Shown in pieces: positions 28,186 to 49,227 of a stretch of 64,000 nt of DNA. The notes under the pieces are model-generated. The model had not been told where the DNA came from. It saw nothing but the letters and a program-made list of their open reading frames with translations, and ran no database searches. Every line of letters begins with the position of its first letter. The first letter of the stretch is position 1. This DNA comes from Lentzea indica. Lineage in GTDB: Bacteria; Actinomycetota; Actinomycetes; Mycobacteriales; Pseudonocardiaceae. A program made the translations under genes and the position numbers. The stretch covers positions 1 through 64,000 of the forward strand of contig NZ_VSRL01000022.1 of assembly GCF_012184385.1 (NCBI RefSeq), given 5' to 3'.

Positions 28186-29094
28186 GTGTCAAACCTGGAT
28201 GAGATTTCGAGTCCACCCCAAACAGCGCCGGACCTTCAGGATGAGTCAAGAATGGTCGGCCAGTACTACGACGACAAGACGGCCAAGCTCGTTCGCAAAT
28301 ACGGTCCTGGACCCAGGATTCACTATCACGTGGGTTACTACCCCGCCTCCGAAACGCCGCCGCACGCCCACGACGCGACGCCGGAGGCCATTCGCCACAG
28401 CATTCGGCTCCATCAAGAGGGTCTGCTGCGGTACGCGGCCAAGATCTGGGGGGCCGAACACCGGCTGTCGGGGCGAATCCTGGACGTCGGCTGCGGACTC
28501 GGCGGGGGCTCGCTCTTCTGGGCACAGGAGTACGGCGCCGACGTGACGGCGATCACCAACGCGCCGGAACACCCGCCGATCGTCGACGGGTTCGCGCGGG
28601 AATGCGGTGTGGACGGGAAGGTCCGGACGCTGGTCCGCGATGCGACGCAGCTCCCACTGGACGGCCCCTACGACGCGGCCGTGGCGATCGAGAGCAGCGG
28701 ATATTTCAACCGTCCTCTGTGGTTCGAGCGTCTGGCGCGCGTGCTTCGTCCAGGCGGGAGTGTGTGCATCGAGGAAGTGTTCATCACCCGCCCCCACGGG
28801 GCCGACGTGTGGGCCGAATACTTCTACACGAAGCCGGTCACGGTGCTCGACTACGTAGAAGCCGCGAAGTCCGCCGGTTTTGAACTCGTCGATGACGTCG
28901 ACGCCACGTCGGAAACTTCGCCGTTCTGGGACGAGAGTGCCGCCTGGACGAAGGCGGTGCTGGACAGCGACAGCAGCCTTTCCGCGGTTGCCCGCAGGCA
29001 GATGAGGATCTCACTGCTGGCGAACCAGGCGCTGGGCACCGAATGGAAAGCAGGGGGCCTGAAGCTGGGTTTCCTGCGCTTCGAGCTGAAGTGA
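28186..29094 (+). CDS. SAM-dependent methyltransferase, prenyl-diphosphate C-methyltransferase-like
   Basis: A 302-residue class I methyltransferase. GTG 28186 follows GGAGA with good spacing. The sequence opens VGQYYDDKTAKLVRKYGPGPRIHYHVGYY, then a His/Asp-rich loop and RHSIRLHQEGL. Motif I is ILDVGCGLGGGS (residues 98-109). The N-terminal layout is that of geranyl-diphosphate C-methyltransferases, a group that includes the 2-methylisoborneol GPP methyltransferase and, by role, BezA of the benzastatin pathway, which methylates C6 of GPP. In this setting I infer methylation of the prenyl donor before transfer to the aminobenzoate. It heads the unit driven by repeat copy 1. Which carbon is methylated cannot be read from sequence. 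Confidence 0.75.
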   Translation: MSNLDEISSPPQTAPDLQDESRMVGQYYDDKTAKLVRKYGPGPRIHYHVGYYPASETPPHAHDATPEAIRHSIRLHQEGLLRYAAKIWGAEHRLSGRILDVGCGLGGGSLFWAQEYGADVTAITNAPEHPPIVDGFARECGVDGKVRTLVRDATQLPLDGPYDAAVAIESSGYFNRPLWFERLARVLRPGGSVCIEEVFITRPHGADVWAEYFYTKPVTVLDYVEAAKSAGFELVDDVDATSETSPFWDESAAWTKAVLDSDSSLSAVARRQMRISLLANQALGTEWKAGGLKLGFLRFELK

Positions 29095-29116
29095 ACGAGG
29101 AATGCCGCACTGACAC

Positions 29117-29164
29117 ATCACGCAGGCGCTCGGCCGGGGTTGCCCAGCCGGGCGCCTGCGTGAT
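29117..29164. terminator. Strong hairpin between the two methyltransferase genes
   Basis: Perfect 13-bp arms ATCACGCAGGCGC (29117-29129) and GCGCCTGCGTGAT (29152-29164), with an inner CGGC/GCCG pair. It lies 23 bp after the first methyltransferase and before the second. It should end or attenuate the first transcript. Confidence 0.75.
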
Positions 29165-29209
29165 CGGCCGGCGACTTCAAGCCACCTTCACAACGATACG
29201 GAGTTCCTC

Positions 29210-30039
29210 ATGACGCTCGAGCAGTCTCCCGCTCCCAGCGACGTCGCCGACGTGTACGACGGGATCGGTCAGATCTACGGTTCCGCGTGGGGCCCAACTA
29301 CCACTACGGCTACTGGGAGAACGACGCCGACGACAGCTCGATCGAGGTGGCCACGGACCGCCTGACCGACATGATGATCTCCGGTCTCGCCGCGCAGGCC
29401 GGCCAGCGGGTCCTCGACGTCGGCTGCGGCATCGGCCACCCCGCGCTGCGGCTCGTCCGCACTTCGGACGTGAACGTGGTGGGCATCTCCGTCAGCCACG
29501 TCCAGGTGGCGCAGGCGAACGAACTCGCGGCCGCGGCCGGGCTCGCCGACAAGGCGACGTTCCAGTTCACGGACGCGATGGACATGTCCTTCCCCGACGA
29601 CTCGTTCGACGCGGCCTGGGCGTTCGAGTCGATGTGGCACATGCCCGACCGCGGCCAGGTGCTCTCCGAGATCGCCCGCGTCCTGCGCCCCGGCGGCCGC
29701 CTCGCCATCGCCGACGTCATCGAGCGAGGCCCGGTCAGCCCTGAGGGGCGCAAGGTCCTGGACCACGTCTGCGAGAACTACGCGGTGAAGTCCTTGGCCA
29801 CCATCGACGAATACCGGACGGCGTTGGCCGCCAACGGTTTCGTCGACGTGGAGATCCGCGACATCAGCGACAATTCCTGCCGCACGCTCGCGGTCATGGC
29901 CGACGCCGTGGAGACCAAACGCGACGAACTGGTCGCTCTGGTCGGCGAGGAACAGGCCACCTCGCTCCTCGCCTTCATGCGTCTGTCCGCGGTCACCCCG
30001 GAGCAGGGCTACCTCTACCTGACCGCGGTCCGCGCGTGA
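29210..30039 (+). CDS. SAM-dependent methyltransferase, Rif-Orf14/gamma-TMT-like, with an apparent frameshift near its start
   Basis: A class I methyltransferase of about 275 residues if the frameshift is repaired. ATG 29210 (CGGAG site) opens a frame reading VADVYDGIGQIYGSAW. The body resumes one frame over at 29287 as GPNYHYGYWENDADD, then RVLDVGCGIGHPALRLV (motif I) and AWAFESMWHMPDRGQVLSEIARVLRPGGR. Adding one G in the GGGG run near 29287-29291 joins them into a normal N-terminus. As it stands, translation could start only at GTG 29287, losing about 26 residues that normally cover the active site. The relatives I recall methylate hydroxyl or amine groups of antibiotics; the substrate here is unknown. 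It ends at a convergent terminator. Confidence 0.75.
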
Positions 30040-30056
30040 CGGCTTCGCCGCGCACT

Positions 30057-30091
30057 CCTCGGCCTGCGCCACGCCGTGGCGCAGGCCGAGG
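30057..30091. terminator. Bidirectional hairpin terminator
   Basis: Perfect 15-bp arms CCTCGGCCTGCGCCA and TGGCGCAGGCCGAGG with a 5-nt loop, centred in the 58-bp gap between the convergent methyltransferase and P450 genes. Confidence 0.88.
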
Positions 30092-30097
30092 CCGTCC

Positions 30098-31345
30098 TCA
30101 CAGCCGTACCCGCAACTCGGTCAACGCCCGAAGCGGAAACACCGGCCGGTGACGTGGCAGCTGCCCTGGCGCCAGAGTCAGCCCCGGCATCCTGGCGGCG
30201 ATGGCCTGCACCGCGATCTCCAGTTCCGCGCGGGCGAATCCGGCTCCGAGGCAGAAGTGGATGCCGTGCCCGAACGCGAGATGCGTGGCAGACCGACTGC
30301 CTGGACTGAACGCGGCCGGACACGCGTGGGCGCGACTGTCCCTGCCGGCCGCTCCGTACAGCAGAAGCAGCCGGCTCCCCTCGGCCAGGTGGACGTCGCC
30401 GACCACCACGTCACGCGTCGCGGTCCGGTACATGCCCGCCAGCGGACTGTCGAACCGCAACCCCTCCTCGACGAGGTCCCTGGTGGCGATCGTTCCGTCG
30501 ACGACCTCGGCCCAGCCGCCGGGTGACCGGAGCTGCTGGAAGAGGATCGTGCCCAGCGCCTCGGCACACGTCATGTGTCCCGCGAAGATCAGTGTGGGGA
30601 TCTGGACGGCGACCTCGTCGGCGGTGAGCGTGTTGCCCGCCTTGCCGTCGTGGAGCAGCTCGCTGATCAGGTCGTCCTGGGGTGAGGCCAGCCGCTCCTG
30701 CGCGAGTGAACGGGCGAACGCTCCGAACTCCACCAGCCCGCGGGCCCATTCACGCAACCGGTCGGGATCGGTGTCGTGCTGCAACATCATGAGTTCGATG
30801 CGTTGTTCGGACCACAAGCGACAGCGGTCGAGGTAGGAGTCCGGGACCCCGAGACGCCGGCACATCACCTCAAGGGCGTACGGAACGGCGAACGCCGAGA
30901 TGAAGTCGAACTCCGCCGCGACCGCGGCACGCTCGACGAGGTCGGTGGCGATCGCACGCATCGTGGGTTCGAACGCTCTGACCCTGGCCGGCGTGAACCC
31001 GGTGTTGAGCACTTCCCTGATCCTGGCGTGCTCGGGAGGGTCGAGTGAGCCGACGGCGACAGCACCGGCGCCGCGCCAGGTGCGGAACATCTGACTCACG
31101 TCCTCGGGCAGCGCGACCTTGGGACGAGGGTTGTGGTCGCGCGCCGAGAAGCTCCGGTCGTCCTTCAGCACCGCGACCATGTCCTCGCGCCGGGTGACGC
31201 ACCACGCGTCGAGCAAAGGGGCGTAGAACACCGGCTCCGCATCAACGATGTCGGCCAGGAATGAGTACGGGTCGTCGCGATGTGCGCCATACGGGTCGAA
31301 CGGCCTGCCGTCACGCAATTGCCTGGAATCGGCCGATATAGCCAT
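30098..31345 (-). CDS. Cytochrome P450 (P450-A)
   Basis: A 415-residue soluble bacterial P450 monooxygenase. ATG 31345 follows GAGAGGCGAA. It has the I-helix AGHMTCAEAL (the oxygen-activating Thr is kept, but the next position is Cys instead of the frequent Thr), the K-helix ExxR as EEGLRF, and the heme loop FGHGIHFCLGAGFA with the ligand Cys. It is transcribed away from the prenyl synthase operon across the repeated promoter element, so the two may be co-regulated. It probably hydroxylates or otherwise oxidises an intermediate late in the pathway. No ferredoxin gene is next to it. Confidence 0.92.
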   Translation of the reverse strand: MAISADSRQLRDGRPFDPYGAHRDDPYSFLADIVDAEPVFYAPLLDAWCVTRREDMVAVLKDDRSFSARDHNPRPKVALPEDVSQMFRTWRGAGAVAVGSLDPPEHARIREVLNTGFTPARVRAFEPTMRAIATDLVERAAVAAEFDFISAFAVPYALEVMCRRLGVPDSYLDRCRLWSEQRIELMMLQHDTDPDRLREWARGLVEFGAFARSLAQERLASPQDDLISELLHDGKAGNTLTADEVAVQIPTLIFAGHMTCAEALGTILFQQLRSPGGWAEVVDGTIATRDLVEEGLRFDSPLAGMYRTATRDVVVGDVHLAEGSRLLLLYGAAGRDSRAHACPAAFSPGSRSATHLAFGHGIHFCLGAGFARAELEIAVQAIAARMPGLTLAPGQLPRHRPVFPLRALTELRVRL

Positions 31346-31453
31346 TTCGCCTCTCAAGCTTTCAGTGAACCATTCCCAATGCTGATCAGCGCGACACTTC
31401 TGGACGATGGTCGTCTGCTCTGACGCGTGCCCGGCCCTGGCGCCGCCAGCGGC
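31346..31453. other. Upstream region of P450-A
   Basis: About 110 bp between the P450-A start and the repeated element. It is the presumed P450-A promoter. No gene or clear consensus boxes are seen. Confidence 0.3.
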
Positions 31454-31569
31454 CACCAATCCACAGAATAGTCCAATCCGGGCTTTACGTCGTCTTCTTT
31501 GGGGTTTTTCCTAAAGTCGAACGTGCTCACGCCGCGTCGTTGACACGAACAGGAGAGGTCGTTCAGGAT
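31454..31569 (+). promoter_or_regulatory. Repeated 100-bp regulatory element with promoter, copy 2
   Basis: Second copy of the element at 27947 (about 10 mismatches in 100 bp). The same CTTTGGG...CCTAAAG dyad-like core is present. TTGACA (31540-31545), an 18-bp spacer and CAGGAT (31564-31569) follow. It should drive the prenyl-synthase-to-DAHP-synthase operon, with a leader of about 150 nt. The strict conservation outside the promoter boxes points to a shared activator site. Confidence 0.8.
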
Positions 31570-31728: not shown

Positions 31729-32766
31729 ATGAGCACACTCGACACCTCGTCGACCGGGCTCCAAGCCCTCCTGTCGCCGAGGACGGTGCGGTCCACGGTC
31801 TTGCCCGTTGTGCGGCAGCAGGTTTCCGCGCTGGAGCCGACCCTGGCCCGGATCTGCTCCTACCACCTCGGCTTCATCGACGAACACGGTGACCCCACCG
31901 GTGCGGGGAGCGGCAAACTGACCCGCGCTGCCCTCATGACGGCGGCGGCCGAGGGAGTCGGTCTGCGGCCGGAGGACGTTCAGTCCCAGGCAGCAGCACT
32001 GGAGTTGCTGCACAACTCGACCCTGATCCACGACGACATCATCGACGCGGACGAGCTGCGTCGCGGCCGCCCAGCCGCGTGGAAGGTGTTCGGCGCCAGC
32101 CTGGCCATCCTGGCCGGGGACGCGTTGCAGGCTCTTTCCCTGCAGGTGGTCGTCGACGACCCCGGCCCCGGCCGTGCGGAGATCTCCAGCGCGTTCGCCG
32201 AAGCCCTCCGCCTGGTTCTCGCGGGCCAGTCTCGCGAGCTCACCGTCCGGCTGGGTCCGGGCGCCGGCATCGCGGAGTACGACCGGATCGTGGAGGAGAA
32301 GACGTCCGCGCTGCTGGAGTGCGCACTGGTGACGCCCGCACTGCGGGCGGGCAAACCGGAGCACGTCCTGGCCGCCCTGCGCGGTGCGGGCAGGCACCTG
32401 GGCCTCGCATTCCAGATCTCCAACGATGTCGAGGACATCTGGGGCGACCCCGCGGTGACCGGCAAGCCCGTCCGGGGCGACATCGGGCGGCGCAACCCGT
32501 CTTTTCCGGTGCTGGCGGCGTTGTCCGCCGACAGCCCGGTCAGCGAGCGACTGCGCGAGCTGTGGCACGGCGACGGCACCGCGGCGGCGCACCTGCAGGA
32601 GATGGCCGACCTCACCGAGGAGGCCGGCGGCCGTCACACGGCCGAAAAGCTGTCCCGCGGCCATCTCGGCTCGGCTCTGGAGCACCTCGGACGAGCCGAG
32701 CTGTCCCCGGCCGCGTCCGCCGAACTGACCGCCTTGTTCGACCGCATCGTCAACCGCACGGCATGA
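31729..32766 (+). CDS. Trans-isoprenyl diphosphate synthase
   Basis: A 345-residue prenyl synthase, with ATG 31729 after GGAGGAGAA. It elongates DMAPP with IPP. The first Asp-rich motif is DDIID (102-106) followed by RRGRPAAWKVFG. The second motif is NDVED (232-236), where the usual first Asp is Asn. The residues before motif 1 (NSTLIH) are small, with Ser at -5, so no aromatic floor limits chain length there; product length (C10, C15, C20 or longer) cannot be fixed by eye. It is the first gene of the operon that includes the UbiA prenyltransferase, so it should make that enzyme's donor. The next gene starts 24 bp downstream. Confidence 0.9.
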   Translation: MSTLDTSSTGLQALLSPRTVRSTVLPVVRQQVSALEPTLARICSYHLGFIDEHGDPTGAGSGKLTRAALMTAAAEGVGLRPEDVQSQAAALELLHNSTLIHDDIIDADELRRGRPAAWKVFGASLAILAGDALQALSLQVVVDDPGPGRAEISSAFAEALRLVLAGQSRELTVRLGPGAGIAEYDRIVEEKTSALLECALVTPALRAGKPEHVLAALRGAGRHLGLAFQISNDVEDIWGDPAVTGKPVRGDIGRRNPSFPVLAALSADSPVSERLRELWHGDGTAAAHLQEMADLTEEAGGRHTAEKLSRGHLGSALEHLGRAELSPAASAELTALFDRIVNRTA

Positions 32767-32789
32767 CCCGTGACTCCCGGAGGTCGTCA

Positions 32790-33959
32790 GTGAGTACCCC
32801 GGTTCAACTGCCTTTCGAGCAGGCGAACGTGCTGCAACTCGCGCCAGGGCTGCGCACGCTCCAATCCCGGGGCACGGTTCACCGGGTTCGTACTCCCGCA
32901 GGCGACGAGGCGTGGCTGGTCACCGGTCACGCCCAGGTGAGGCAGTTGCTCGACGACGACCGGCTCAGCCGCTCGAATCCCGATCCGGAAGCGGCGAAGG
33001 ACGGCGGGGCGGCGCTTCTCGCCAGCCTGCTGGGCGGTTTCGCCACCGACCACGCCCGGATGCGTGCTCTGCTGGAGCCGCACTTCGCACCTGAGCGCAT
33101 GGCGGAGCTGCGACCGTACGTCGAGAAGCAGACCGGGCAGCTGCTGGACGAACTGGCCGGGCAGCAGCCACCGGTCGACCTGCGCGAGGCGTTGGCGCTG
33201 TCGCTGCCGATCCAGGTGATGTGCGAGTGGCTGGGCGTGCCGCAGGAGGACAAGGACAAGTTCGGCGGCTGGACGCAGGACGCCGCGAACGTCGGCGACC
33301 CGGTCAGGTCCAAGCAGGGGCTGGGCGGGTTGTTCGGCTACTGCAAGCAACTCATCGCGGACAAGCGGCGGAATCCGGGCGATGACGCGATCTCCAGGAT
33401 CTGCGCGACCGAGGGGATCACCGACGACGAGGTTCTCGGGCTGACGGCGTTGTTGCTGTTCGGTGGTTATGAGACCACGGTGGCCCGGATCGGCACCTGT
33501 GTGTTGCTGTTGTTGTCCAACCCCGAGCAGTGGCAGGCGTTGCTGGACGACCCGAGCCTCGTCCCCGGCGCCGTCGAGGAAACCCTGCGGATGTCGATGC
33601 CGAACCCGCACAACGGCGGCATGCCCCGTTACGCGGTGACGGACTTCGAGATCGACGGGGTCACCATCCGGACCGGCGACTTCGTGCTGCTGAACATCAT
33701 CGCGGCCAACCACGACGAGACGGCCTTCGCCGGCCCCGGCCGGGTCGACGTCACGCGCGACACCGCGGACAGCCTCGCGTTCGGGTACGGCGCGCACCAC
33801 TGCGTGGGCGCGGCGCTGGCGCGGATGCAGCTGCAGGTGGTGCTCACCCAGCTCGTCGCGCGGTTCCCGACGATGCGCCTGGCTGTCGGTGTGGACGAGC
33901 TGCGGCTGCGCCACGACACGTTGATCGGCGGGTTGGTCGAACTCCCGGTGACCTGGTGA
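32790..33959 (+). CDS. Cytochrome P450 (P450-B), candidate BezE-type cyclase
   Basis: A 389-residue P450. I chose GTG 32790 because CGGAGG sits 7 bases upstream; ATG 32763, overlapping the previous stop, is the alternative. I-helix FGGYETTVAR, ExxR in EETLRM, and heme loop FGYGAHHCVGAALARM. It lies between the prenyl synthase and the UbiA and N-acetyltransferase genes. In benzastatin biosynthesis the P450 BezE takes a prenylated N-acetoxy-aminobenzoate and closes the indoline or tetrahydroquinoline ring, without a normal hydroxylation. Gene order and partners make P450-B the best candidate here. That role is inferred from context, not from residues. Confidence 0.85.
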   Translation: MSTPVQLPFEQANVLQLAPGLRTLQSRGTVHRVRTPAGDEAWLVTGHAQVRQLLDDDRLSRSNPDPEAAKDGGAALLASLLGGFATDHARMRALLEPHFAPERMAELRPYVEKQTGQLLDELAGQQPPVDLREALALSLPIQVMCEWLGVPQEDKDKFGGWTQDAANVGDPVRSKQGLGGLFGYCKQLIADKRRNPGDDAISRICATEGITDDEVLGLTALLLFGGYETTVARIGTCVLLLLSNPEQWQALLDDPSLVPGAVEETLRMSMPNPHNGGMPRYAVTDFEIDGVTIRTGDFVLLNIIAANHDETAFAGPGRVDVTRDTADSLAFGYGAHHCVGAALARMQLQVVLTQLVARFPTMRLAVGVDELRLRHDTLIGGLVELPVTW

Positions 33960-34867
33960 TTGGGAACCTGATGCTGCACAAGATATCCGCGGGCGTCGTC
34001 ACGAAGAGCCCGGACTCGATCCGGTCGTATCTGCTGTTGATGCGACTGGACCGGCCGACGGGCTACATCCTCTACCTGCTTCCAGGACTCTGGGCCGTCG
34101 TCTTCGCCTCCGGGGGACGGCCGAACCTGCTCGCGGTGGCGGCCGTCGCCGTCGCCGCGGTGCTGATCCGCGGTTTCGCCTGCGCGACCAACGACGTGAT
34201 CGACAAGGAGATCGACGCCCGCGTCGCCCGCACCGTGTCGCGTCCTGTCGCGTCGGGGAAGGTCAGCGTCCGGAACGCGAACCTGTGGGCCGCCGCGCAG
34301 GCTCTGGTCGCACTGCTGGTCCTCGCGGTGGCGAACGTCGAGACGGCTCTGGTCGCCCTGGCCACGTACCCGTTGATCGTCGCGTACCCGTTCATGAAGC
34401 GCTTCTTCTTCTGGCCCTCGGGGTTCCTCGGGCTGGTGATGAGCACCTACGTGTTCGTCGGATGGACGGCGGCGACCGGGAACGCCGACTACCCACCCGC
34501 GGTGTACGGCCTGTACGCCGCAGGGACTTTCTGGGCCATGGTCCACGACGCGATCTACTCCCATCAGGACAAGGAGTACGACCGGAAAATCGGCGTCCGG
34601 TCTTCGGCGTTGCTGTTCGGCGGGGCCACCAAGGCGTGGCTGTCGGTCTTCGTCGTGCTCAGCGTCGCCGGCGTGCTGTGGGCCGGTTCCCTGACGCCGA
34701 TCGGGTGGGCGTTCTACGTGATCGTCGTGCTCGCGGGAACCTACCTGTCCTACCTGCTCTTCCGGGTGGACCTGGACAACCCCAAGTCGTGCTGGGACGC
34801 CTTCGTCGCCAACACCTACTACGGCTGGATCGTTCTCGCCGCCGTGATCGCCGGGCAGTTCACATGA
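33956..34867 (+). CDS. UbiA-family aromatic prenyltransferase
   Basis: A membrane prenyltransferase of about 300 residues with eight to nine helices. The first Asp motif is NDVIDKEIDARVART and the second is DAIYSHQDKEYDRKIG; both bind the Mg-diphosphate of the prenyl donor. The start is GTG 33956 (GTGA overlap with the P450-B stop) or ATG 33971. Relatives such as UbiA attach a prenyl chain next to the ring substituent of 4-hydroxybenzoate. With PABA genes in the same operon, I infer C3-prenylation of p-aminobenzoate, the role of BezF in the benzastatin pathway. The stop overlaps the next start (ATGA). Confidence 0.93.
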   Translation: MIGNLMLHKISAGVVTKSPDSIRSYLLLMRLDRPTGYILYLLPGLWAVVFASGGRPNLLAVAAVAVAAVLIRGFACATNDVIDKEIDARVARTVSRPVASGKVSVRNANLWAAAQALVALLVLAVANVETALVALATYPLIVAYPFMKRFFFWPSGFLGLVMSTYVFVGWTAATGNADYPPAVYGLYAAGTFWAMVHDAIYSHQDKEYDRKIGVRSSALLFGGATKAWLSVFVVLSVAGVLWAGSLTPIGWAFYVIVVLAGTYLSYLLFRVDLDNPKSCWDAFVANTYYGWIVLAAVIAGQFT

Positions 34868-35694
34868 GCGATTCGATGTGGCAAGGCGGTGGCGTCGACC
34901 TGGACGCCTACCTGACCCGCGTGGGCTACGAGGGCGACGTGGCCGCGGACCTCTTCACGCTGCGGGGCCTGCACACCGCCCACGTCGATGCGATCGCCTT
35001 CGACAACCTCGACGCGCTGCTCGGGCGCACGGCGGTGCCGCTGGACCTGGACAGCGTCCAGGAGAAGATCGTGCGGCGGGGCCGCGGAGGCTGGTGCCTG
35101 GAACAGGTCGTGCTGATGGCGGCCGTGCTGGACCGCATCGGGTTCACGTTCACGGCGTTCGCCGGCAGGACGCGGATCCGCACCGGGAGCAGGTTCGGGC
35201 CGGCCCTGCACGTGGCCCTGTGCGTGGAGCTGGACGGCGAACTCTGGCTCCACGACGTGAGTTTCGGCGCCTTCGGGCCGCACGAGCCGATCCAGCTCGC
35301 GGAGAACGCGCGGCTGGACGGCGACTGGTCGTTCGATCTCGTGCGCGAGCCGAGCGGTGAACACGTGCTGCGGTTCCTGCGGCCGGAGGGACCGGCGGAG
35401 CTCTACGGCTTCACCACGGACGTGCGCTATCCATCGGACTTCGAGCTTCTCAACCACTTCTGCCTCACGCATCCGCGCTCGCCGTTCAACCACCGGATGA
35501 TCCTCCAGCGCACGCAGCCTGAGGTGAGGCACCTCCTCGCCGGCACCGTGCTCACCGAGATCCGGCCGGGGGAGCCGGCGACGGTCCGCGAGCTCGACGA
35601 GGCCGAGACGCTGTCCGCTCCCGAGGAGATCTTCGGGATCACCTTGGAGCCAGGCGACATCCAGGTCCTCAGGAAGACCTTGGCGGGCCCATGA
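34864..35694 (+). CDS. Arylamine N-acetyltransferase (BezG-like)
   Basis: A 276-residue NAT-family enzyme. The catalytic triad is visible as Cys78 (RGRGGWCLEQ), His116 (GPALHVALC) and Asp131 (LHDVSFG). The 38- and 15-residue spacings equal those of characterised bacterial NATs. NATs move acetyl from acetyl-CoA to arylamines or arylhydroxylamines. In benzastatin biosynthesis the NAT makes the N-acetoxy substrate that the P450 cyclises. Here it is coupled by 4-bp overlaps to both UbiA and pabAB. Together with the AurF-like gene downstream, this supports O-acetylation of an N-hydroxy aminobenzoate. Confidence 0.92.
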   Translation: MSDSMWQGGGVDLDAYLTRVGYEGDVAADLFTLRGLHTAHVDAIAFDNLDALLGRTAVPLDLDSVQEKIVRRGRGGWCLEQVVLMAAVLDRIGFTFTAFAGRTRIRTGSRFGPALHVALCVELDGELWLHDVSFGAFGPHEPIQLAENARLDGDWSFDLVREPSGEHVLRFLRPEGPAELYGFTTDVRYPSDFELLNHFCLTHPRSPFNHRMILQRTQPEVRHLLAGTVLTEIRPGEPATVRELDEAETLSAPEEIFGITLEPGDIQVLRKTLAGP

Positions 35695-37729
35695 CGCGTA
35701 CATTGCTGGTGGACAACTACGACTCGTACACCTTCAACCTGTACCAGCTGATCGCCGAGATCAACGGCCAGGAGCCGGTCGTCGTGGTGAACGACGATCC
35801 GGCACTGCTCGACCTGTGGCTGGAGAACTTCGACAACATCGTCGTCTCGCCCGGCCCCGGTCGACCGCAGAGCTCCCGCGACATCGGCCTCGTCGGGGAA
35901 CTGTTGCGCCGCACCACGTTGCCGGTGCTGGGTGTTTGTCTCGGCCATCAGATCATCGGGCACCTGGCGGGCGCGACCGTGTCCGCCGCGCCCGAGCCAC
36001 GGCACGGGCACCTCGCCAAGGTCTCCCACGAGGGAGATCCGTTGTTCGCCGGGGTTCCTCGTGAGTTCGTCGCGGTGCGGTACCACTCGCTCGGCGTGCA
36101 GGAGCCTCTGCCGGAGGAGCTCGTCCCGATCGCGTGGGCGGACGACGGCGTGTTGATGGCGTTGCGGCACCGGGACTTGCCGCAGTGGGGGGTGCAGTTC
36201 CACCCCGAGTCGGTCGCCTCCGGGTACGGCAGGGAGATCCTGCGGAACTTCGCCGAGCTGACCCGCCAGGCCCACGGGTCTGGATCCAGCGCGCTCGGAC
36301 TCATCAGCACCGTCGTCCCGACCGCTGCCGATGCCGAGTCCATCTTCCTGGAGCTGTTCGACGACAACCCCTGCTGCTTCTGGCTCGACAGCAGCCGGGT
36401 CGAGAAAGGACTGTCCCGGTTCTCGTTCCTGGGCGACACGTCCGGGCCGCTCAGCGAGATCGTGACGTACCGCACCGGCAGCGGGGTGGTGGAGGTGCGC
36501 GACGCCGACGGGGTCCGCGACGTCCCCGGCAGCGTGTTCGACTTCCTGGAGCAGCGGCTGCGCGAGCGGCGGATCCCCGACACGACCCTGCCGTTCAACC
36601 TGACCGGTGGGTACGTCGGCTACTTCGGGTACGAGCTCAAGGCGGAATGCGGTGCCGCGGTCCGCCACAGCGCCCAAACTCCGGATGCCGCCTGGATGTT
36701 CGCCGACCGGATCGTCGCGGTCGACCACCAGGAAGGGCTGACCTACCTGGTCGCCGTGCACGACGAGGAGACCCGGCGCGACGCTCAGGAGTGGGTGGAC
36801 CGGACGGCGACCGTCCTCAGTGGACTGCGCCCGGCTGCCGACGAGCCCGCGGGCGAACCGTGCGCGCTTCCTGACGCCGAGGAGTACCTGGTCCGCGACC
36901 GGGACCAGTACCTGGCGGACATCGCGGAGTGCCAACGGCAGCTGCGCCTGGGCGAGAGCTACGAGATCTGCCTGACCAACAACCTGCACCTGCCGTTCCA
37001 CGACGACGACACCACGTTCTACCGGCGGTTGCGCCGGGCGAACCCGGCGCCGTACGCCGCGTTGCTGCGCCTCGGCGACGTCACGGTCTTCTGCTCGTCG
37101 CCGGAGCGGTTCCTGCGCATCGAGCGGGACCGCACGGTCACCAGCAAGCCGATCAAGGGCACCGCACCCCGCGACGCCGATCCCGTGCGCGACGCCGAGA
37201 TCGCCGCCACCCTCGCCTCGAGCGCCAAGACGCAGGCCGAGAACCTGATGATCGTCGACCTGCTGCGCAACGACCTGGGCCGGGTGTGCGAGGTGGGCAG
37301 CATCGACGTCGATCCGTACCTGGCCGTCGAGAGCTACCAGACCGTGCACCAGCTGGTCTCCACGGTCCACGGCCGGCTCAAGGACGGGGTCAGCGCGATG
37401 GACTGCCTCCGGCAGTGCTTCCCCGGCGGCTCGATGACCGGGGCGCCGAAGCTGCGCACCATGGAGATCATCGACGGCCTGGAGACGGAGGCCAGGGGCG
37501 TGTACTCCGGCACCCTCGGCTACTTCGGCCTCTCCGGCGGCACCGACCTGAACATCGTGATCCGCACCGCGGTCCGCGTCGGTGACCGGTTGACGATCGG
37601 TGCGGGCGGGCGATCGTGCTCGACTCCGACGCCCAGGAGGAGTACGAGGAGATGCTGCTCAAGGCGGCGGCGTCGCTGCGCGCCTGGCGTGCGCCAGCAG
37701 TGTCGGACGCGGGCGGCTCGCAGCGATGA
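35691..37729 (+). CDS. pabAB: Fused aminodeoxychorismate synthase (PabA-PabB), with a 3' frameshift
   Basis: Makes 4-amino-4-deoxychorismate from chorismate and glutamine. Residues 1-195 are the glutamine amidotransferase (GVCLGHQ nucleophile Cys; FHPES His-Glu). The PabB part follows, with SKPIKGTAPRD, whose Lys marks aminodeoxychorismate rather than anthranilate synthases, and CFPGGSMTGAPKLRTMEII. The intact frame fails at about 37605, after LTIGAGG. The expected tail AIVLDSDAQEEYEEMLLKAAAS continues one frame over, to TGA 37727-37729, which overlaps the next ATG. Adding one G in the GGGCG run repairs it. If the deletion is real, the protein loses its last two helices and reads into a nonsense tail ending near 38219. 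Confidence 0.9.
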
Positions 37730-39484: not shown

Positions 39485-40798
39485 ATGAGCGACGGCACAG
39501 TCGAAACGGTCCCGGACTGGCGGACGCTCGTCGCCCACCAGCGACCGGAGTGGCCCGACCAGGTCAGGCTCGACGAGGTGGTGGCCGACCTGGCGGCCTC
39601 GCCCTCGCTGGTCACACCCCAGGAATGCGACACGCTCACCGCACGCCTCGCCCAGGTCGCAGAGGGCAAAGCGTTCCTGCTGCAGGGCGGTGACTGCGCC
39701 GAACGTCTCGACAACCTCTCGACGCAGGCGATCCAACGCAAACTGCGCCTGCTGCAGCAGATGTCCGTGATCCTCACGTCCGCCTCGGCGCTCCCGGTGG
39801 TCACCGTGGGCCGGATCGCCGGCCAGTACGCCAAGCCCCGGTCCTGGCCGACCGAGACCGTCGACGGGCGCACGCTGCCGGTGTACCGGGGCGACGCGGT
39901 GAACGGCATCGGCTTCACCCAGGCGGAACGGCAGCCCGATCCGGCCCGGCTGCGTCGCGTGTACGACGCTTCACGGTACACATTGGACGTTCTGCGCGCC
40001 CACACCTACGACCTGCACCAGCTGCGCGAACGGAACCAGGACTTCGTCGCCCGCTCGCCGGCCGGCGTTGGCTGCGGCCGGCTCGTCAGGCGGATCGGCC
40101 GGTCAATGTCCTCAATGGACGCCAGAGGCGGCGCGAGCGGCGCGGAGTTGTTCGCGAGCCACGAGGGACTCCTGCTCGACTACGAGGAAGCGCTGACCCG
40201 CCACGACCGGGGCTCCGGCCGGCGATACGCGGGCAGCGGCCACATGCTGTGGATCGGTGACCGCACCAGACAGCTCGACGGCGCCCACGTCGCCTACTTC
40301 GCGACCATCGACAACCCCATCGCGGTGAAGCTGGGCCCGGCCACCACGCCCGAGCACGCGCTGGCCCTGATCGACCGCCTCGACCCCGACCGCCGGCCGG
40401 GCAGGCTGACGTTCATCGTGCGCATGGGAGCCCGCCGGGTACGGGACCTGCTGCCGGAGCTCGTGGAAAAGGTCAACGCCTCAGGAGCGCCGGTGGTGTG
40501 GGTGAGCGATCCCATGCACGCCAACACCTTCCAAGCGCCCAGCCGGCACAAGACGCGGCGTTTCGACGACGTCCTCGCCGAGGTCGCCGGCTTCCTCGAG
40601 GTGCACAAGGCGCTCGGCACCCACGCCGGCGGCCTGCACGTGGAGCTGACCGGTGAAGACGTGACCGAGTGCATCGGCGGCAGTGCCGAACTGGGTTTCG
40701 AGGACCTGCACCGCAACTACGAGTCGGCGTGCGACCCGCGTCTCAACGCCGACCAGGCACTCGAGCTGGCCTTTTTGGTCGCCGAGATGCTTGGCTGA
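39485..40798 (+). CDS. Class II 3-deoxy-7-phosphoheptulonate (DAHP) synthase
   Basis: A 437-residue plant-type DAHP synthase, the first step of the shikimate pathway. Characteristic stretches are KAFLLQGGDCAERL, VVTVGRIAGQYAKPRS, LPVYRGDAVNG, GSGHMLWIGDRTRQLDGAH, VSDPMHANTF and HAGGLHVELTGEDVTECIGG. Cluster-borne copies (as in phenazine pathways) usually escape feedback control and raise chorismate supply. It is the last gene of the prenyl-synthase operon, 33 bp after the N-oxygenase. Its stop codon is built into the terminator hairpin at 40796. Confidence 0.95.
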   Translation: MSDGTVETVPDWRTLVAHQRPEWPDQVRLDEVVADLAASPSLVTPQECDTLTARLAQVAEGKAFLLQGGDCAERLDNLSTQAIQRKLRLLQQMSVILTSASALPVVTVGRIAGQYAKPRSWPTETVDGRTLPVYRGDAVNGIGFTQAERQPDPARLRRVYDASRYTLDVLRAHTYDLHQLRERNQDFVARSPAGVGCGRLVRRIGRSMSSMDARGGASGAELFASHEGLLLDYEEALTRHDRGSGRRYAGSGHMLWIGDRTRQLDGAHVAYFATIDNPIAVKLGPATTPEHALALIDRLDPDRRPGRLTFIVRMGARRVRDLLPELVEKVNASGAPVVWVSDPMHANTFQAPSRHKTRRFDDVLAEVAGFLEVHKALGTHAGGLHVELTGEDVTECIGGSAELGFEDLHRNYESACDPRLNADQALELAFLVAEMLG

Positions 40799-40836: not shown

Positions 40837-40848
40837 GCAAGGGAGCGA

Positions 40849-42510
40849 TCATCCCGCGTCGGGGTTCGTGTACAGCGTCCCCTCCGACCAGATGTAACGA
40901 GTCCCACCCCACCGGGCCGCCGACTCGACGTCGGGAAAGAAGCCCCGTCCCTCCAGGTTCGCGCTGGTGTTGCACAGCACGGGTATTCCGCTGATCTCCG
41001 CATAGGCGGTGAGGATGCGCACCGTGGCGGTGTCCTGAGTGGACGCGATGGTCTGGAGCCGGGCGGTGCCGTCCAGGTGCACGATCGCCGGGACGCGTTC
41101 GGCCCAGCCGGGCCGCATGCGGTGCTCGAAGATCATGTAGGGATCGGGCGTGCCGGGGTCGAAGACCTCCGGCGCGCGGTCCTCCAGGCAGATGGGCGCG
41201 ACGGGCCGGTACTGGGCTCGGTTCTTGATGTCGTTGAGCCGGTCCTTCATCCGGGTGCTGGTCGCGGGCGCGATGATGCTGCGGTTGCCCAGAGCTCGCG
41301 GACCCAGCTCCGCTCGGCCGGACAGGACGACCACCGGTTCGTCCTCGGCGTGCAGGAGGGCGGCCAGCTGCCGCTCGTCGCAGGGTTGTGCGCGCCACCC
41401 GTCGGGGAGGGTGCCGGTGGTGATCCGCGGTCCGCTGTAGACGTTCCACTCCAGCGCCGTCCGGCCGCGCCGGAACATCTCACAGGCCGCTGTTCCGATC
41501 GCCGCCCCCGCGTCGTTGGGGAAGGGCGGGATGAAGACCTCCTGGAAGACCCCGCTGGCCCGGATCGCGGTGTTCCACTTGATGTTCAGCGCGCAGCCGC
41601 CGCCGAGCACCAGGTTGTGGCCGCCGTCCGGGAAGCGGCTCCGCACCGCCGAGGTGAGCCGCTCGAGCAGGTTGCGGCCGAGGTAGGCCTGATAGGTGGC
41701 GATGAGGTCCGCGTTGGACAAGCCCGGCATCAGCTCGTCCCGGTTCGCGGCGACCTTGTCTCCCAGCACCCCCACCCTGTCGACGGGAATGTCGCGGAGC
41801 TCGGCCATGAGGTCGTCGAAGACGGCGAAGGCGCCGGTCTCGACCCGGCCTTTGGCCGCGTAGGCCATGGCCTTTCCCGCGACGGAGAGGTGATGGCGGA
41901 TGAACCGGTCCGACGAAATGTCGTCGGTGTCGGGCAGGTACGGTTCGAACCGGGCGCAGAAGGCCGCGAAGCTGCCTCCGAAGACGGGCATGAGGGCCTC
42001 GACGAAGGTCACCTCACGGGTCGCGGCCCGCACCCGGTAGAGGCGCGGTGTGATGAGGCCGTCCCAGACCAGGACGAACGCGTCTTCGCCCCTCGCGGCG
42101 AACGGGCTCGAGCAGTACGTGCCGATGAGATGGTTGGCGACGTGGGTGTAGCTGGCGTAGTCGTCGAAACCGTGGCCGCTGAAAGTGTGGCGTTGCAGCG
42201 GACCGTCGTCGCCAGGGCTCTCGAGGTACGGTGCGACTCGGAGCTGTACCGGCAGGCCGCCGGCGTTCACGTTGACGGCGAGCTTGCCCGCGGCGTCTTT
42301 CGTGTACCAGCCGTCGACCACGAACTGGTCGATGTCGGCGGGTGACAGACCCTCCGCGGCGAGGATCTCGGTCACGCGTTCCAGGTCTCCGAGAGAGCTG
42401 TAACGTTCGCCGTTCTGCAGCTTCTCGATCTCGTAACTGAAGAGAAGACGACCGTCCTCGATGACGGCAACCCCGCCGTCGTGTGATGCCTTGATCCCGC
42501 ATATGCGCAT
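40849..42510 (-). CDS. O-carbamoyltransferase (NodU/TobZ/NovN family)
   Basis: A 553-residue carbamoyltransferase that makes carbamoyl-adenylate from carbamoyl phosphate and ATP and passes it to a hydroxyl group. The Kae1-like N-terminal domain keeps His10, the metal-binding pair His123/His127 (THVANHLIG) and Asp150 (WDGL), followed by GGGCALNIKWN. The C-terminal YrdC-like domain has GRAELGPRALGNRSI and CNTSANLEGRG. ATG 42510 is preceded by GAAAGGTG at somewhat long spacing. Benzastatins as I know them carry no carbamate, so this predicts an extra decoration, plausibly on a hydroxyl made by the carboxylic acid reductase route or a P450. It probably forms an operon with P450-C upstream. Confidence 0.93.
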   Translation of the reverse strand: MRICGIKASHDGGVAVIEDGRLLFSYEIEKLQNGERYSSLGDLERVTEILAAEGLSPADIDQFVVDGWYTKDAAGKLAVNVNAGGLPVQLRVAPYLESPGDDGPLQRHTFSGHGFDDYASYTHVANHLIGTYCSSPFAARGEDAFVLVWDGLITPRLYRVRAATREVTFVEALMPVFGGSFAAFCARFEPYLPDTDDISSDRFIRHHLSVAGKAMAYAAKGRVETGAFAVFDDLMAELRDIPVDRVGVLGDKVAANRDELMPGLSNADLIATYQAYLGRNLLERLTSAVRSRFPDGGHNLVLGGGCALNIKWNTAIRASGVFQEVFIPPFPNDAGAAIGTAACEMFRRGRTALEWNVYSGPRITTGTLPDGWRAQPCDERQLAALLHAEDEPVVVLSGRAELGPRALGNRSIIAPATSTRMKDRLNDIKNRAQYRPVAPICLEDRAPEVFDPGTPDPYMIFEHRMRPGWAERVPAIVHLDGTARLQTIASTQDTATVRILTAYAEISGIPVLCNTSANLEGRGFFPDVESAARWGGTRYIWSEGTLYTNPDAG

Positions 42511-42605: not shown

Positions 42606-43841
42606 CTAGCGGTGGTTCAGCCGTACCGGCAGTGAGTCGAGCCCGCGAATGATCGTGCTGTTGCGCCACCGCAGGTCCTCGGGGTCGACGGCGAGCCTCA
42701 TGGCGGGGAACGCGTCGAGCAGGGCGCCGAACGCCATCTGCACCTCCACCCTGGCCAGCGGCGCCCCGAGGCAGTGGTGGATGCCATGTCCGAAGGCCAG
42801 ATGGCCGGCGGCGGGCCGGAGGACGTCCAGCGCGTGCGGATCACCGAAGCGCTGGGGGTCACGGTTGGCGGAGGCGATCGCCAGCAGCACGAAGTCACCG
42901 GCCGGGATCTCGACGTCACCGATGCTCACCGACTCCGTCGCACATCGGAAGGTGGCGTGCTTCAGCGGGCTCTCCAGCCTCAGGAACTCCTCGACCGCGC
43001 CGGGGAGGAGGGTTCGGTCCTCGCGCAGCGCCTCCCATTGGTCCAGGTTCCGCATCAGGTGGAGCGTGCCGTTGCCGAGGGCGTTGAGGGTGGTCTCGAA
43101 ACCGGCGATGAACAGCAGGTAGGCCGTCGAGACCAGTTCGGTCTCGGTCAGCCGGTCGTCGACGTCGTGCGCCGAGATCAGGGCGGTGAGCACGTCGTCG
43201 GTGGTCATGCGGCGTTTGCGCTCGATCAGTTCGCCGAGGTACTCGGCCACCGCGGTCGCGGCGGCGGCGGCCTCGTCCGGGGAGTTGCCGGAGACGAGCG
43301 CCTTGGACCAGGACTTGAAGTTGCCCTGCTCCTCGACAGGTACGCCCAGCAGCAGGCAGATCACCCGAATCGGCAGCGGAAACGCGAAGGCGTCCAGCAG
43401 GTCCACCGTGTCGTGGTCCGCGAGGGCGTCGACCAGTTCGTCGGTGATCTTCTGGATCTGCGGCCGGAGCGCTTGGATGGCGCGGCTGGTGAAGGCCTTG
43501 CTCACTAGCTTGCGCAGCCTGGTGTGGTCCGGTGGGTCGGTGTGCATCATGTGGCTGGCCAGGACCGAGGAGAAACCGCCGCGCTTGGTGCGGTCCGGCT
43601 CCTTCTGCGCGAACAGCCCGTCGATCCTGTTCAGGTCGGTGCTCAGCCGGGGATCCGCCAGTGCGGAGCGCACAGCCTCGTATCCGGTGATGAGCCAGAC
43701 CGGCAGTCCGCCGCACAGGGGGACTCCAGGAGGCATCATCACCCGGTGCGCCGAGCCTTCGGTGCTGAGCTTCGCATACACCGAGTACGGGTCCTGCACG
43801 AACGCGTCGTCGAGTTCCAGAGGGGCGGAATCGTGGTCCAT
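42606..43841 (-). CDS. Cytochrome P450 (P450-C), CYP107-like
   Basis: A 411-residue P450. ATG 43841 follows GAGGA; an in-frame start at 43886 lacks a site. I-helix IAGFETTLNAL, ExxR in EEFLRLE, heme loop FGHGIHHCLGAPLARVE. The pattern resembles CYP107-type enzymes that hydroxylate polyketides and terpenoids. It lies 95 bp upstream of the carbamoyltransferase on the same strand. It could create the hydroxyl that is carbamoylated. It is divergent from the carboxylic acid reductase gene. Confidence 0.92.
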   Translation of the reverse strand: MDHDSAPLELDDAFVQDPYSVYAKLSTEGSAHRVMMPPGVPLCGGLPVWLITGYEAVRSALADPRLSTDLNRIDGLFAQKEPDRTKRGGFSSVLASHMMHTDPPDHTRLRKLVSKAFTSRAIQALRPQIQKITDELVDALADHDTVDLLDAFAFPLPIRVICLLLGVPVEEQGNFKSWSKALVSGNSPDEAAAAATAVAEYLGELIERKRRMTTDDVLTALISAHDVDDRLTETELVSTAYLLFIAGFETTLNALGNGTLHLMRNLDQWEALREDRTLLPGAVEEFLRLESPLKHATFRCATESVSIGDVEIPAGDFVLLAIASANRDPQRFGDPHALDVLRPAAGHLAFGHGIHHCLGAPLARVEVQMAFGALLDAFPAMRLAVDPEDLRWRNSTIIRGLDSLPVRLNHR

Positions 43842-47481: not shown

Positions 47482-47799
47482 CCTTCACGCTTCGTCTTTC
47501 CGGCCGAGCCCTGGGATACCGCAGGGCGAAATCGCAGTGCCGCGACGTGCTACAGCGGCCTGCTTTATCTGCTACACGCTGAGCTGTCCGACAGCAGCGC
47601 GAACGCCGCGGCCACCGCCGTCGCACCAGACGCACGCGCCGCAGTCACTGCCGCATCCATCAATTGTCGTAGATGCTGATGACGGTGTTCAATCGCCAGC
47701 AACAACCATGCACCGTGCACGAGGTCGTTACAGCACAACGCGCAGCAGGTCGGTATTGTGTTGTGGACCGCAATGCGGGAGCGCTGTAATCTTGCGAAC
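47482..47799. other. Intergenic region upstream of the GMC oxidoreductase
   Basis: About 320 bp with visibly lower GC than the biosynthetic genes. Short open frames here have no motif. It presumably holds the GMC promoter and may mark one edge of transferred DNA. Confidence 0.35.
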
Positions 47800-49227
47800 G
47801 TGAGTGATTACGACTACATCGTAGTGGGCGGTGGGAGCGCAGGTTGCGTGGTCGCTGCTCGCCTGGCCGAGAACGCAAACGTCAGCGTACTGTTACTGGA
47901 GGCGGGGAGTGCGTCTCCGTCGACCACCACGCCGAACAATTGGCTATCACTTTTGGGCACCGAAGCAGATTGGCAGGACACGACTCTGCTGGAGCCGGAA
48001 CTGGGCAGAACTCTCGCCTGGCCACGCGGGAAAGCGCTGGGCGGCTCTTCCAGCATCAACGGAATGATTTTTGCTCGAGGACACCGAAGCAGTTACGACT
48101 GGGGCAAGGGCTGGGAGTTTGACGACTTGCTGCCATTTTTCCAGCGCAGCGAGCACGCTCCCACTCGCGATCCGGCCCTGCGCGGCGTCGGTGGCCCTCT
48201 GAAGGTCGCCCCAGCCGAGCAACAGCATCCGACAGCAGCAGCGTACGTGGATGCGGCCTCAGAGGCAGGATACCGGCGTGCGACGGACATCAGCGGAGGC
48301 TTGGAGGAGGGTGTCGGCTGGGTCGACTTGAACATCGTCGCAGGAATCAGGCAGAGCGCTGCCGACGCCTACCTGGGCTCACACACCAACCTCGATGTGG
48401 TGACGGATGCATTGGTCCAGCGTGTGGTGCTCGATGGACACAGAGCCACTGGCGTCGAATACACCCTTGGCGGACAGCAAATCCGCGCCGAAGCTGCCGA
48501 AGTGGTGCTTTGCGCGGGCACCATCGGAACTGCTCAATTGATGATGCTGAGCGGGATCGGTCCGGCCGACCACCTGCGTGACATGAACATCGATGTCGTC
48601 GCAGATCTGCCAGGTGTGGGCGAAAATCTGCACGATCATCCCCTCTCCTTCGTGATGTACACCAGTGCGCGACCAATACCGGTGGGCTCGAACAACAACG
48701 TCGAGGTGATCGGACTGCTGCGCAGCGATCCCGGACTGGGCGCTCCAGATCTACAATCTTGCCTATCGGCACCGACGGGGGAAGACCTCTACGTGATCGC
48801 GCTCTCTCTGATGACGCCGTACAGCCGTGGGCGACTCCGCTTGGCCGACCAAGGAATCGCGCTGGCTCCGCGTTACCTGACCGATGCGCGAGACTTGACC
48901 GCGATGGTAAATGGAATGCGGCTGATACGCGAGATTGGCGCAGCAAGCGCCCTCAAACCGTGGCGCGGGCAAGAAGTAGAGTCAGGCGGCGAGACTTATG
49001 TCAGAGCGGCCACGGGGCCATACTACCACTATGTCGGCACATGCAAGCTGGGTGTGGACGAGATGTCGGTGGTGGACCAAAATCTACGCGTACATGGCAT
49101 TGAGGGCCTACGGATCGCAGACGCCTCAGTGATCCCGCAGATCCCGTCGGCCAATACTTACTCGACCGTGATTGCGATCGCGGAACGAGCCGCAAGCCTC
49201 ATCAACGGAGCCGAAACAGTAGAGTGA
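47800..49227 (+). CDS. GMC-family FAD-dependent oxidoreductase
   Basis: A 475-residue flavoprotein of the glucose-methanol-choline family, oxidising an alcohol or related group. GTG 47800 gives the standard opening SDYDYIVVGGGSAGCVVAARLAE (FAD-binding). The GMC signatures ALGGSSSINGMIFARGH and GTIGTAQLMMLSGIGP are present. The catalytic pair is His in YYHYVGTCKLG and Asn in IPSANTYSTVIAIAE. Codons such as AAT, TTT, GGA and GCA are much commoner than in the neighbours, suggesting recent acquisition. It is just left of intron and IS debris. It might oxidise an alcohol of the pathway product, or be unrelated cargo. Confidence 0.88.
   Translation: MSDYDYIVVGGGSAGCVVAARLAENANVSVLLLEAGSASPSTTTPNNWLSLLGTEADWQDTTLLEPELGRTLAWPRGKALGGSSSINGMIFARGHRSSYDWGKGWEFDDLLPFFQRSEHAPTRDPALRGVGGPLKVAPAEQQHPTAAAYVDAASEAGYRRATDISGGLEEGVGWVDLNIVAGIRQSAADAYLGSHTNLDVVTDALVQRVVLDGHRATGVEYTLGGQQIRAEAAEVVLCAGTIGTAQLMMLSGIGPADHLRDMNIDVVADLPGVGENLHDHPLSFVMYTSARPIPVGSNNNVEVIGLLRSDPGLGAPDLQSCLSAPTGEDLYVIALSLMTPYSRGRLRLADQGIALAPRYLTDARDLTAMVNGMRLIREIGAASALKPWRGQEVESGGETYVRAATGPYYHYVGTCKLGVDEMSVVDQNLRVHGIEGLRIADASVIPQIPSANTYSTVIAIAERAASLINGAETVE

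Follow-up and report, generated by a model that had tools for sequence, protein, structure and literature searches.

The biosynthetic locus in the Lentzea indica window

The window analysed here is a stretch of 64,000 nucleotides of Lentzea indica DNA (contig NZ_VSRL01000022.1, positions 1 to 64,000 of the forward strand), which lies on a 64.9-kb contig of a draft genome of 9.97 Mb in 634 contigs. The region from about 17.8 kb (perhaps from 10.5 kb) to 49.2 kb is best explained as a single biosynthetic gene cluster for a tetrahydroquinoline or indoline meroterpenoid of the benzastatin/virantmycin family, chlorinated or hydroxylated, with a conserved second layer of tailoring enzymes; we give this explanation as a whole a probability of roughly 0.68. 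The reference system is the bez cluster of Streptomyces sp. RI18 (MIBiG BGC0001529), after which the positions of the core genes are named in the following list.

28186..29094, plus strand: methyltransferase MT1, BezA ortholog and predicted C6-methyltransferase of geranyl diphosphate (GPP); 591 bits against PDB 7fbh (BezA)
29287..30039, plus strand: methyltransferase MT2, probable O-methyltransferase in the BezB position; best PDB relatives 3bus (219 bits) and MitM (207 bits)
30098..31459, minus strand: cytochrome P450 in the BezC position (P450A); Pfam p450
31729..32766, plus strand: short-chain polyprenyl diphosphate synthase in the BezD position; Pfam polyprenyl_synt, DDIID motif
32763..33959, plus strand: cytochrome P450 in the BezE position (P450B), putative nitrene-transfer enzyme; Pfam p450, fifth in the row
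33986..34867 (exact start uncertain), plus strand: UbiA prenyltransferase in the BezF position; Pfam UbiA 173.6 bits, N...D...D motif
34864..35694, plus strand: arylamine N-acetyltransferase (NAT), predicted BezG type; Pfam Acetyltransf_2 171.9 bits, Cys, His and Asp motifs
35691..37729, plus strand: pabAB, frameshifted in the assembly; Pfam GATase, Anth_synt_I_N and Chorismate_bind
37726..38493, plus strand: pabC, aminodeoxychorismate (ADC) lyase; Pfam Aminotran_4 (class IV), orthologs in relatives
38507..39451, plus strand: AurF-family diiron N-oxygenase, predicted BezJ type; Pfam AurF 111.6 bits, above cut-off
39485..40798, plus strand: class-II 3-deoxy-D-arabino-heptulosonate 7-phosphate (DAHP) synthase, shikimate supply; Pfam DAHP_synth_2 581 bits

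From the prenyl synthase (31.7 kb) to the DAHP synthase (40.8 kb) the genes lie on one strand and either overlap or are closely spaced. All gene families named in the original prediction, including two S-adenosylmethionine-dependent methyltransferases, three P450s and a PabA+PabB fusion, were found by Pfam at the place and strand given there, and its claim of a benzastatin/virantmycin-type core is borne out by a BezA ortholog and by enzymes of BezG and BezJ type that stand in the corresponding order. The row runs MT1, MT2, P450A, prenyl synthase, P450B, UbiA, NAT, PabAB, ADC lyase, AurF-type enzyme, and if the bez letters follow the positions, the first, fifth, seventh and tenth genes would carry the enzyme types of BezA, BezE, BezG and BezJ. 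The order of the NAT, the diiron N-oxygenase, the UbiA protein and the P450 thus fits the names BezA, E, F, G and J; BezF is presumably the prenyltransferase.

MT1 exhibits 84.5% identity to BezA and keeps both key residues, since its Glu169 and Trp209 align with Glu170 and Trp210. Two papers describe Glu170 as the residue that deprotonates the cation and Trp210 as the one that restricts the enzyme to GPP (PMC12471008, PMC10881772). Of 14 rows compared, 12 show the Glu motif and 11 show the Trp motif; two of the rows contain no more than short pieces, and the Salinispora protein is without the Trp pattern.

The N-oxygenase carries seven putative iron ligands (E88, E123, H126, E183, H210, E214 and H217) that are invariant in 11 of 11 sequences, with a spacing that we take to be that of AurF, by AurF numbering. 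It scores below the cut-off of the AurF equivalog family for 4-aminobenzoate N-oxygenases (NF045603; 113.5 versus 620), which would fit the hydroxylamine-forming BezJ branch rather than AurF proper. BezJ is described in PMC6783550 as a diiron N-oxygenase that forms the hydroxylamine of p-aminobenzoate (PABA), and BezG in PMC11213898 as a NAT that may O-acetylate this hydroxylamine; family and catalytic motifs of the NAT in the window are consistent with such an O-acetylating enzyme. BezE, in turn, appears in PMC11843346, PMC10646976 and PMC9866866 as a P450 thought to expel the acetate and to form an aziridine via a nitrenoid, and in PMC10646976 as the first known P450 nitrene transferase.

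P450B, whose heme Cys is present in 19 of 19 sequences, is by its position the probable counterpart of BezE. This assignment is favoured by Actinoplanes RD1, where P450B, NAT, UbiA and the N-oxygenase are all retained and no match to P450A (nor to BezA) was found. The assignment does not explain the odd I-helix motif of P450A, AGHMTC, where Met replaces the customary acid in 17 of 17 sequences, the one in the window included.

Genes that enlarge the core

Immediately to the right of the DAHP synthase lie four further genes.

40849..42510, minus strand: CarbT, predicted O-carbamoyltransferase, NodU/TobZ-like; Pfam carbamoyltransferase N and C domains above cut-off
42606..43841, minus strand: P450C, TamI-like cytochrome P450; PDB TamI 757.6 bits
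44089..47481, plus strand: carboxylic acid reductase (CAR) of adenylation-thiolation-reductase (A-T-R) type; AMP-binding, carrier and reductase domains, NCBIfam NF041592
47758..49227, plus strand: GMC flavoprotein alcohol oxidase/dehydrogenase, right edge of the conserved block; Pfam GMC N and C

These genes, namely P450C, CarbT, CAR and often the GMC oxidase, are by comparison of loci the true additions to the core, and by them the Lentzea cluster would differ from the bez cluster of RI18. The original prediction had counted two extra P450s and a second methyltransferase among the additions. This holds for the P450 at 42.6-43.9 kb, which is specific to the enlarged form, but not for that at 30.1-31.5 kb, which also occurs in core-only clusters; MT2, P450A and the DAHP synthase were therefore rejected as additions, all three being present in core-only loci.

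CarbT shares both Pfam domains with NodU and TobZ; it matches the NCBIfam NodU model (NF041651) over its full length with 613.8 bits, which is under the cut-off of 1000, and PDB TobZ over the C-terminal half with 116.8 bits. CAR passes the NF041592 equivalog cut-off (1659.6 bits versus 1300), has its carrier Ser in LGGDS and its reductase Tyr-Lys in YTTSK, and finds its closest solved homolog in PDB 5msc (1381 bits, full-length A-T-R), which we take to be the Nocardia iowensis CAR known for aryl acids; the protein in the window differs from it by sitting in a secondary-metabolite cluster together with a carbamoyltransferase. We considered whether it is merely a general actinobacterial CAR and rejected this, as orthologs with 68-86% identity were found only in enlarged clusters among the genomes examined. 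The GMC enzyme stays under the cut-off for the mycofactocin dehydrogenase MftG (TIGR03970; 312.3 versus 387.45).

P450C is 82% identical to TamI, the tirandamycin P450 (PDB 6xa2), whose substrate is unrelated. In a phylogenetic tree the 14 sampled bez-type P450C proteins form one clade, sister to a separate clade of TamI and two near-copies (97-98% identity; branch support 100/100), and are not nested with TamI; the near-copies lie in stretches of 20 and 36 kb without bez genes. A recent transfer of P450C from a tirandamycin pathway was accordingly rejected, TamI being placed outside the bez-type clade.

Distribution of core and enlarged clusters

Among 390 genomes of the family searched for the N-oxygenase, 22 had a match, and in 11 of these, the window included, the identity was at least 67%. 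The window proteins were compared with 22 stretches (10 from close relatives and 12 around distant N-oxygenase matches) and also with flanking stretches, and a scan of named genomes with two short peptide patterns, which is for that reason not complete, gave 26 loci. Two genomes with close N-oxygenase matches (G151 and G195) were dropped before counting because no bez P450 and prenyltransferase accompany them, as were ten of the 26 loci (L061, L074 and L076-L083), which lack P450B as well as any close NAT or UbiA. After duplicates had been joined, 20 bez-core loci remained, the window among them.

Fifteen genes of the window occur in identical order in five of the ten close relatives and fourteen in a sixth, and this repeated row argues that the grouping is not due to chance. 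P450C and CarbT are present in 12 of the 20 loci: the window, L. waywayandensis, L. cavernae, L. jiangxiensis, G239, Umezawaea endophytica, G383, G062, S. niveus, S. adelaidensis, Salinispora pacifica CNR114 and Nocardia seriolae, the last with a decayed cluster and a truncated P450C. The other eight (Nocardia sp. NRRL S-836, S. ipomoeae, S. antioxidans, Kitasatospora MAA19, S. sp. 150FB, S. caeruleatus, S. acidiscabies and Actinoplanes RD1) carry the core only. Whole-genome searches of these eight covered CarbT and CAR; there was no match to CarbT in any of the eight, and none contains an intact CAR ortholog.

A CAR ortholog (68-86% identity) accompanies P450C and CarbT in ten of the 12 loci. 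The exceptions are N. seriolae and G062, a genome in one contig of 9.4 Mb, in which CarbT and P450C are 90% identical to those of the window and a genome-wide search at E 1e-50 gave no CAR match. Distant CARs (51-60% identity) in Kitasatospora MAA19, N. seriolae (55%) and S. acidiscabies were not counted as orthologs, while a CAR piece of 142 residues behind the DAHP gene of S. ipomoeae points to loss. When 392 Streptomyces genomes were searched with P450C, two more (G744 and G445) proved to have P450C, CarbT and CAR; having been found via P450C, they lend no independent support to the link between P450C and CarbT. The enlarged form has thus been seen in 14 genomes, 12 of them with CAR, and in all 12 the CAR ortholog occurs where P450C is present, among the genomes examined. 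A BezA search in 392 Streptomyces genomes drawn likewise gave six matches, five of them orthologs (at least 83% identity). Of these orthologs, three belong to enlarged clusters (G392, on which the draw was centred, G744 and G445) and the remaining two to core-only ones, so that the enlarged form is not rare in this small sample.

Gene order differs among the enlarged clusters. In Lentzea and Umezawaea, CarbT and P450C lie on the minus strand ahead of CAR and GMC. Streptomyces has P450C-CarbT-CAR, on the strand of the core. The Salinispora core is itself broken up, with UbiA, CarbT, P450C, CAR and a GMC of distant type in succession. A set of genes that is kept while order and strand vary argues for functional linkage in one pathway. 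The opposite strand of CarbT and P450C in the window, and the existence of core-only clusters, might suggest that P450C, CarbT, CAR and GMC constitute a separate neighbouring pathway whose cluster merely touches the core. This is, however, very improbable, since P450C, CarbT and CAR accompany the core in Streptomyces on its own strand and the Salinispora core is rearranged around the same genes; as the set survives rearrangement, we rejected the neighbouring-cluster explanation. The claim of the original prediction that CAR and the carbamoyltransferase are members of the pathway is upheld: they travel with the core, in differing gene orders, through Lentzea, Umezawaea, Streptomyces and Salinispora, and from this distribution both very probably belong to the bez-type pathway.

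On a tree of five core proteins the presence of CarbT requires four changes and that of CAR six, counts which cannot separate gain from loss. A single recruitment of P450C followed by losses would fit best, together with the CAR remnant of S. ipomoeae.

Cluster limits and isoprenoid supply

The original prediction placed the cluster at 28186-49227. Its right edge at the GMC gene stands, as nothing common to the cluster regions of the relatives was found to the right of it within the approximately 10 kb compared, while the left edge was too narrow, for it left out ispG, dxs, ispH, the transporter and a LuxR-type regulator among the following genes.

10504-13284, 13281-15755, 15825-17951 and 17809-20355, plus strand: run of LuxR/LAL-type regulators; Pfam GerE and/or AAA_16
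20825..21838, plus strand: open reading frame (ORF) beside the transporter; no Pfam or NCBIfam match
21869..23068, plus strand: major facilitator superfamily (MFS) transporter, probable exporter; Pfam MFS_1
23878..25350, minus strand: ispG (GcpE) ORF; Pfam GcpE 475 bits, residues 136-475
25020..26837, minus strand: dxs, 1-deoxy-D-xylulose 5-phosphate synthase; Pfam DXP_synthase_N 322.8 bits, kept beside the cluster in relatives
26866..27843, minus strand: ispH (LytB), cluster copy; Pfam LYTB 292.9 bits

The genes ispG, dxs and ispH adjoin the cluster in five Lentzea/Umezawaea relatives, and dxs and ispH in a sixth; the place of ispG is likewise kept in five, its true start probably being near 24945. 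Beyond them the MFS transporter and a LuxR-type regulator keep their place in Lentzea and Umezawaea, so that the conserved block on this side spans 17.8-27.8 kb. The transporter (85-91% identity) adjoins the cluster in six relatives of the Lentzea/Umezawaea group and in two Streptomyces, and the ORF at 20825..21838 has counterparts of 78-87% identity in an equivalent place in three relatives (one of them a piece of 50 residues). The regulator ORF starting at 17809 is kept at the left edge in five relatives and that at 15825 partly in two; the first two regulators (10.5-15.8 kb) lie outside the compared stretches of the relatives, and membership in the cluster is therefore shown only for the 17809 ORF and in part for the 15825 ORF.

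A close copy of ispH (72-94% identity), distinct from the general copy at approximately 50%, is found beside the BezA gene in six more bez loci (S. adelaidensis, Kitasatospora MAA19, S. sp. 150FB, S. acidiscabies, S. caeruleatus and S. antioxidans), and a search close to the clusters of S. niveus, G062, Salinispora, Actinoplanes RD1 and N. seriolae gave none. Because such copies adjoin many but not all bez loci, a dedicated isoprenoid supply appears to be common, though not universal, in this cluster family.

Outside these limits, an ORF of 1462 residues with only a weak match to DUF7743 is found to the left of the regulators (5797-10185). At 50780-54333 and 56413-62215 the window contains an M20-type peptidase, an ORF similar to pyridoxal phosphate-dependent decarboxylases, a TetR regulator, a fourth P450 and an MFS transporter, all unmatched in the cluster regions of relatives.

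A frameshift in pabAB

The pabAB gene is in frame for about 640 codons, then is one base short in a run of G at about 37606-37616, which leaves the last 38 or so codons out of frame; in a plot of the GC content at third codon positions (GC3) the signal switches frame at the same run. We left the sequence uncorrected, with no base restored. The lesion may be either a sequencing error or a real mutation. No such frameshift was seen in 22 other distinct loci compared, all of which read through, although the pattern used for this comparison missed some, e.g. L. waywayandensis.

The lesion raises the possibility that the cluster is dying in this strain and makes nothing, and decay is seen in several relatives (S. 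caeruleatus, S. ipomoeae and N. seriolae). In the core-only locus of S. caeruleatus (L140) dxs, ispG, ispH and the prenyl synthase are in pieces, and in that of S. ipomoeae (L062) the prenyl synthase is in two. We consider a dying cluster unlikely, given that the remaining cluster genes are open in this assembly, that the lack of one base in a G-run is typical of sequencing error in a draft of 634 contigs, and that the general PABA supply could replace the PabAB product.

Proposed pathway

The core chemistry would, with high confidence, proceed as in bez. The DAHP synthase, PabAB and ADC lyase would provide PABA, while the dedicated ispG-dxs-ispH genes and the prenyl synthase would supply GPP, which MT1 would methylate at C6. 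The AurF-type enzyme would form the hydroxylamine, the NAT would O-acetylate it and the UbiA protein would prenylate the ring. P450B would then expel the acetate to form an iron nitrenoid and from it an aziridine, to be opened by chloride or water, a step which is published for bez and inferred here. P450A and MT2, which occur in most clusters whether enlarged or not, probably give the methoxymethyl group.

In the second layer, P450C would hydroxylate the side chain or the ring, a reasonable role for a protein so similar to the hydroxylase TamI. According to PMC11375781, TamI hydroxylates its substrate, passes the product to a flavin oxidase and then oxidises it again. CarbT would carbamoylate the hydroxyl made by P450C, an assignment that we hold to be slightly better than even and that is suggested by the occurrence of CarbT with P450C in each case, and without CAR in G062. 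CAR would reduce the aryl carboxyl to the aldehyde; this role is probable, given the proximity of the enzyme to 5msc and the presence of a PABA carboxyl expected in every bez product, and to this extent the reduction of the carboxyl in the original prediction is plausible. The overall interpretation given there is partly supported. The GMC enzyme, where present, may reoxidise any alcohol formed and so keep the aldehyde, which we propose only tentatively. It stands beside or near CAR in eight of the 12 CAR-bearing clusters: the window, five relatives with 84-87% identity, Salinispora (38%, 1.6 kb on) and G445 (45%, opposite strand). That CAR is paired with differing GMC enzymes points to the aldehyde/alcohol couple as the place where they act.

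Two other arrangements of these steps have to be weighed. The carbamate could be placed on the benzyl alcohol that results from reduction of the aryl carboxyl by CAR, which is close to the original prediction and agrees with the joint presence of CAR and CarbT in ten of the 12 CarbT-bearing loci found via the N-oxygenase. We regard it as unlikely, because G062 has CarbT and P450C without CAR and because CarbT accompanies P450C in 12 of 12 such loci, the truncated P450C of N. seriolae included. Alternatively, the substrate of CAR could be a carboxyl that arises when P450C oxidises a methyl group several times, the resulting aldehyde or alcohol being then carbamoylated. The restriction of the CAR ortholog to genomes with P450C speaks for this, as does the repeated oxidation by TamI, the sister of P450C, together with a flavin oxidase. 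To our knowledge, however, no TamI-type P450 makes carboxylates, the closest solved relative of CAR would be the aryl-acid enzyme named above, and G062 retains CarbT without CAR, so that this arrangement appears somewhat less likely still.

Several observations weigh against the pathway with an aryl-carboxyl CAR and a carbamate on the P450C-made hydroxyl. CAR was never found without P450C and CarbT, which a simple role on the aryl carboxyl leaves unexplained, the carboxyl being present in core-only products too. The argument from CarbT without CAR comes from one intact cluster, that of G062, the other case (N. seriolae) being decayed, and a sign test on three independent pairs (p 0.25) has too few pairs to show that CAR follows CarbT. 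No GMC gene was seen in the clusters of G239, S. niveus, S. adelaidensis and G744, four of the 12 that bear CAR. P450B is equated with BezE by its place in the row, and with its frameshifted pabAB the strain may not make the compound. Finally, we know of no product of any enlarged cluster.

Beyond the pathway as proposed, it is conceivable, though we consider it quite improbable, that the enlarged form leads to a double electrophile of mitomycin-like logic, with the nitrenoid-derived aziridine or chloride and a carbamate on the P450C-made carbon as leaving groups beside an aryl aldehyde, and that it is the older form, the known benzastatins coming from clusters that have lost the second half.

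Related loci outside the bez core

Behind P450C, on the minus strand of the G062 locus (L038, 9279-16467), we observed two AMP-forming ligases, a class I/II aminotransferase and a glycosyltransferase, which perhaps represent another fate for the carboxyl. In Streptomyces samsunensis (L061, 7774-12301) only PabAB, the N-oxygenase and the DAHP synthase (80-89% identity) are present in the stretch, amid unrelated P450, permease and tRNA methyltransferase domains; the locus may be what is left of a bez cluster, or it may use N-hydroxy-PABA for a separate purpose. Pairs of PabAB and an N-oxygenase (55-73% identity for the latter) with no bez P450 or prenyltransferase in the stretch occur at L074, L076-L080, L082 and L083, in S. 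bungoensis, S. lydicus, S. inhibens, S. humicola, Actinomadura macrotermitis and others, and are read as other pathways with N-oxidised PABA. Streptomyces fuscichromogenes (L081, 1314-6710) has UbiA (47%), PabAB, N-oxygenase (61%) and NAT (44%), with no P450B in the stretch, and may contain a prenyl-PABA pathway either without the nitrenoid step or with another enzyme for it. G712 contains a BezA homolog of about 57-60% identity (L136-L137, 14926-15816 of the joined stretch), with no bez core genes in the 40 kb examined, which is read as part of another C6-methyltransferase pathway.

Significance

The cluster is of a known kind, in an enlarged form. No report of the enlarged cluster or of its product was found among the papers listed in the literature searches, with subscription journals mostly outside them. 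Virantmycin and benzastatin C are, according to PMC9866866, of COOH or CONH2 type with no carbamate. The other published benzastatins, as far as we know, have COOH or CONH2 and none has a carbamate.

The BezE cluster family comprises at least 22 loci in several genera, divided into core and enlarged forms. The relation of P450C to TamI makes the pair a case for studying the movement of one P450 family between unrelated pathways. The enlarged clusters predict carbamoylated, carboxyl-reduced benzastatins, and those of the collection strains Lentzea waywayandensis, L. jiangxiensis, L. cavernae, Umezawaea endophytica and Streptomyces niveus, which are apparently intact with each gene in one piece, are the places where such a product may be sought.

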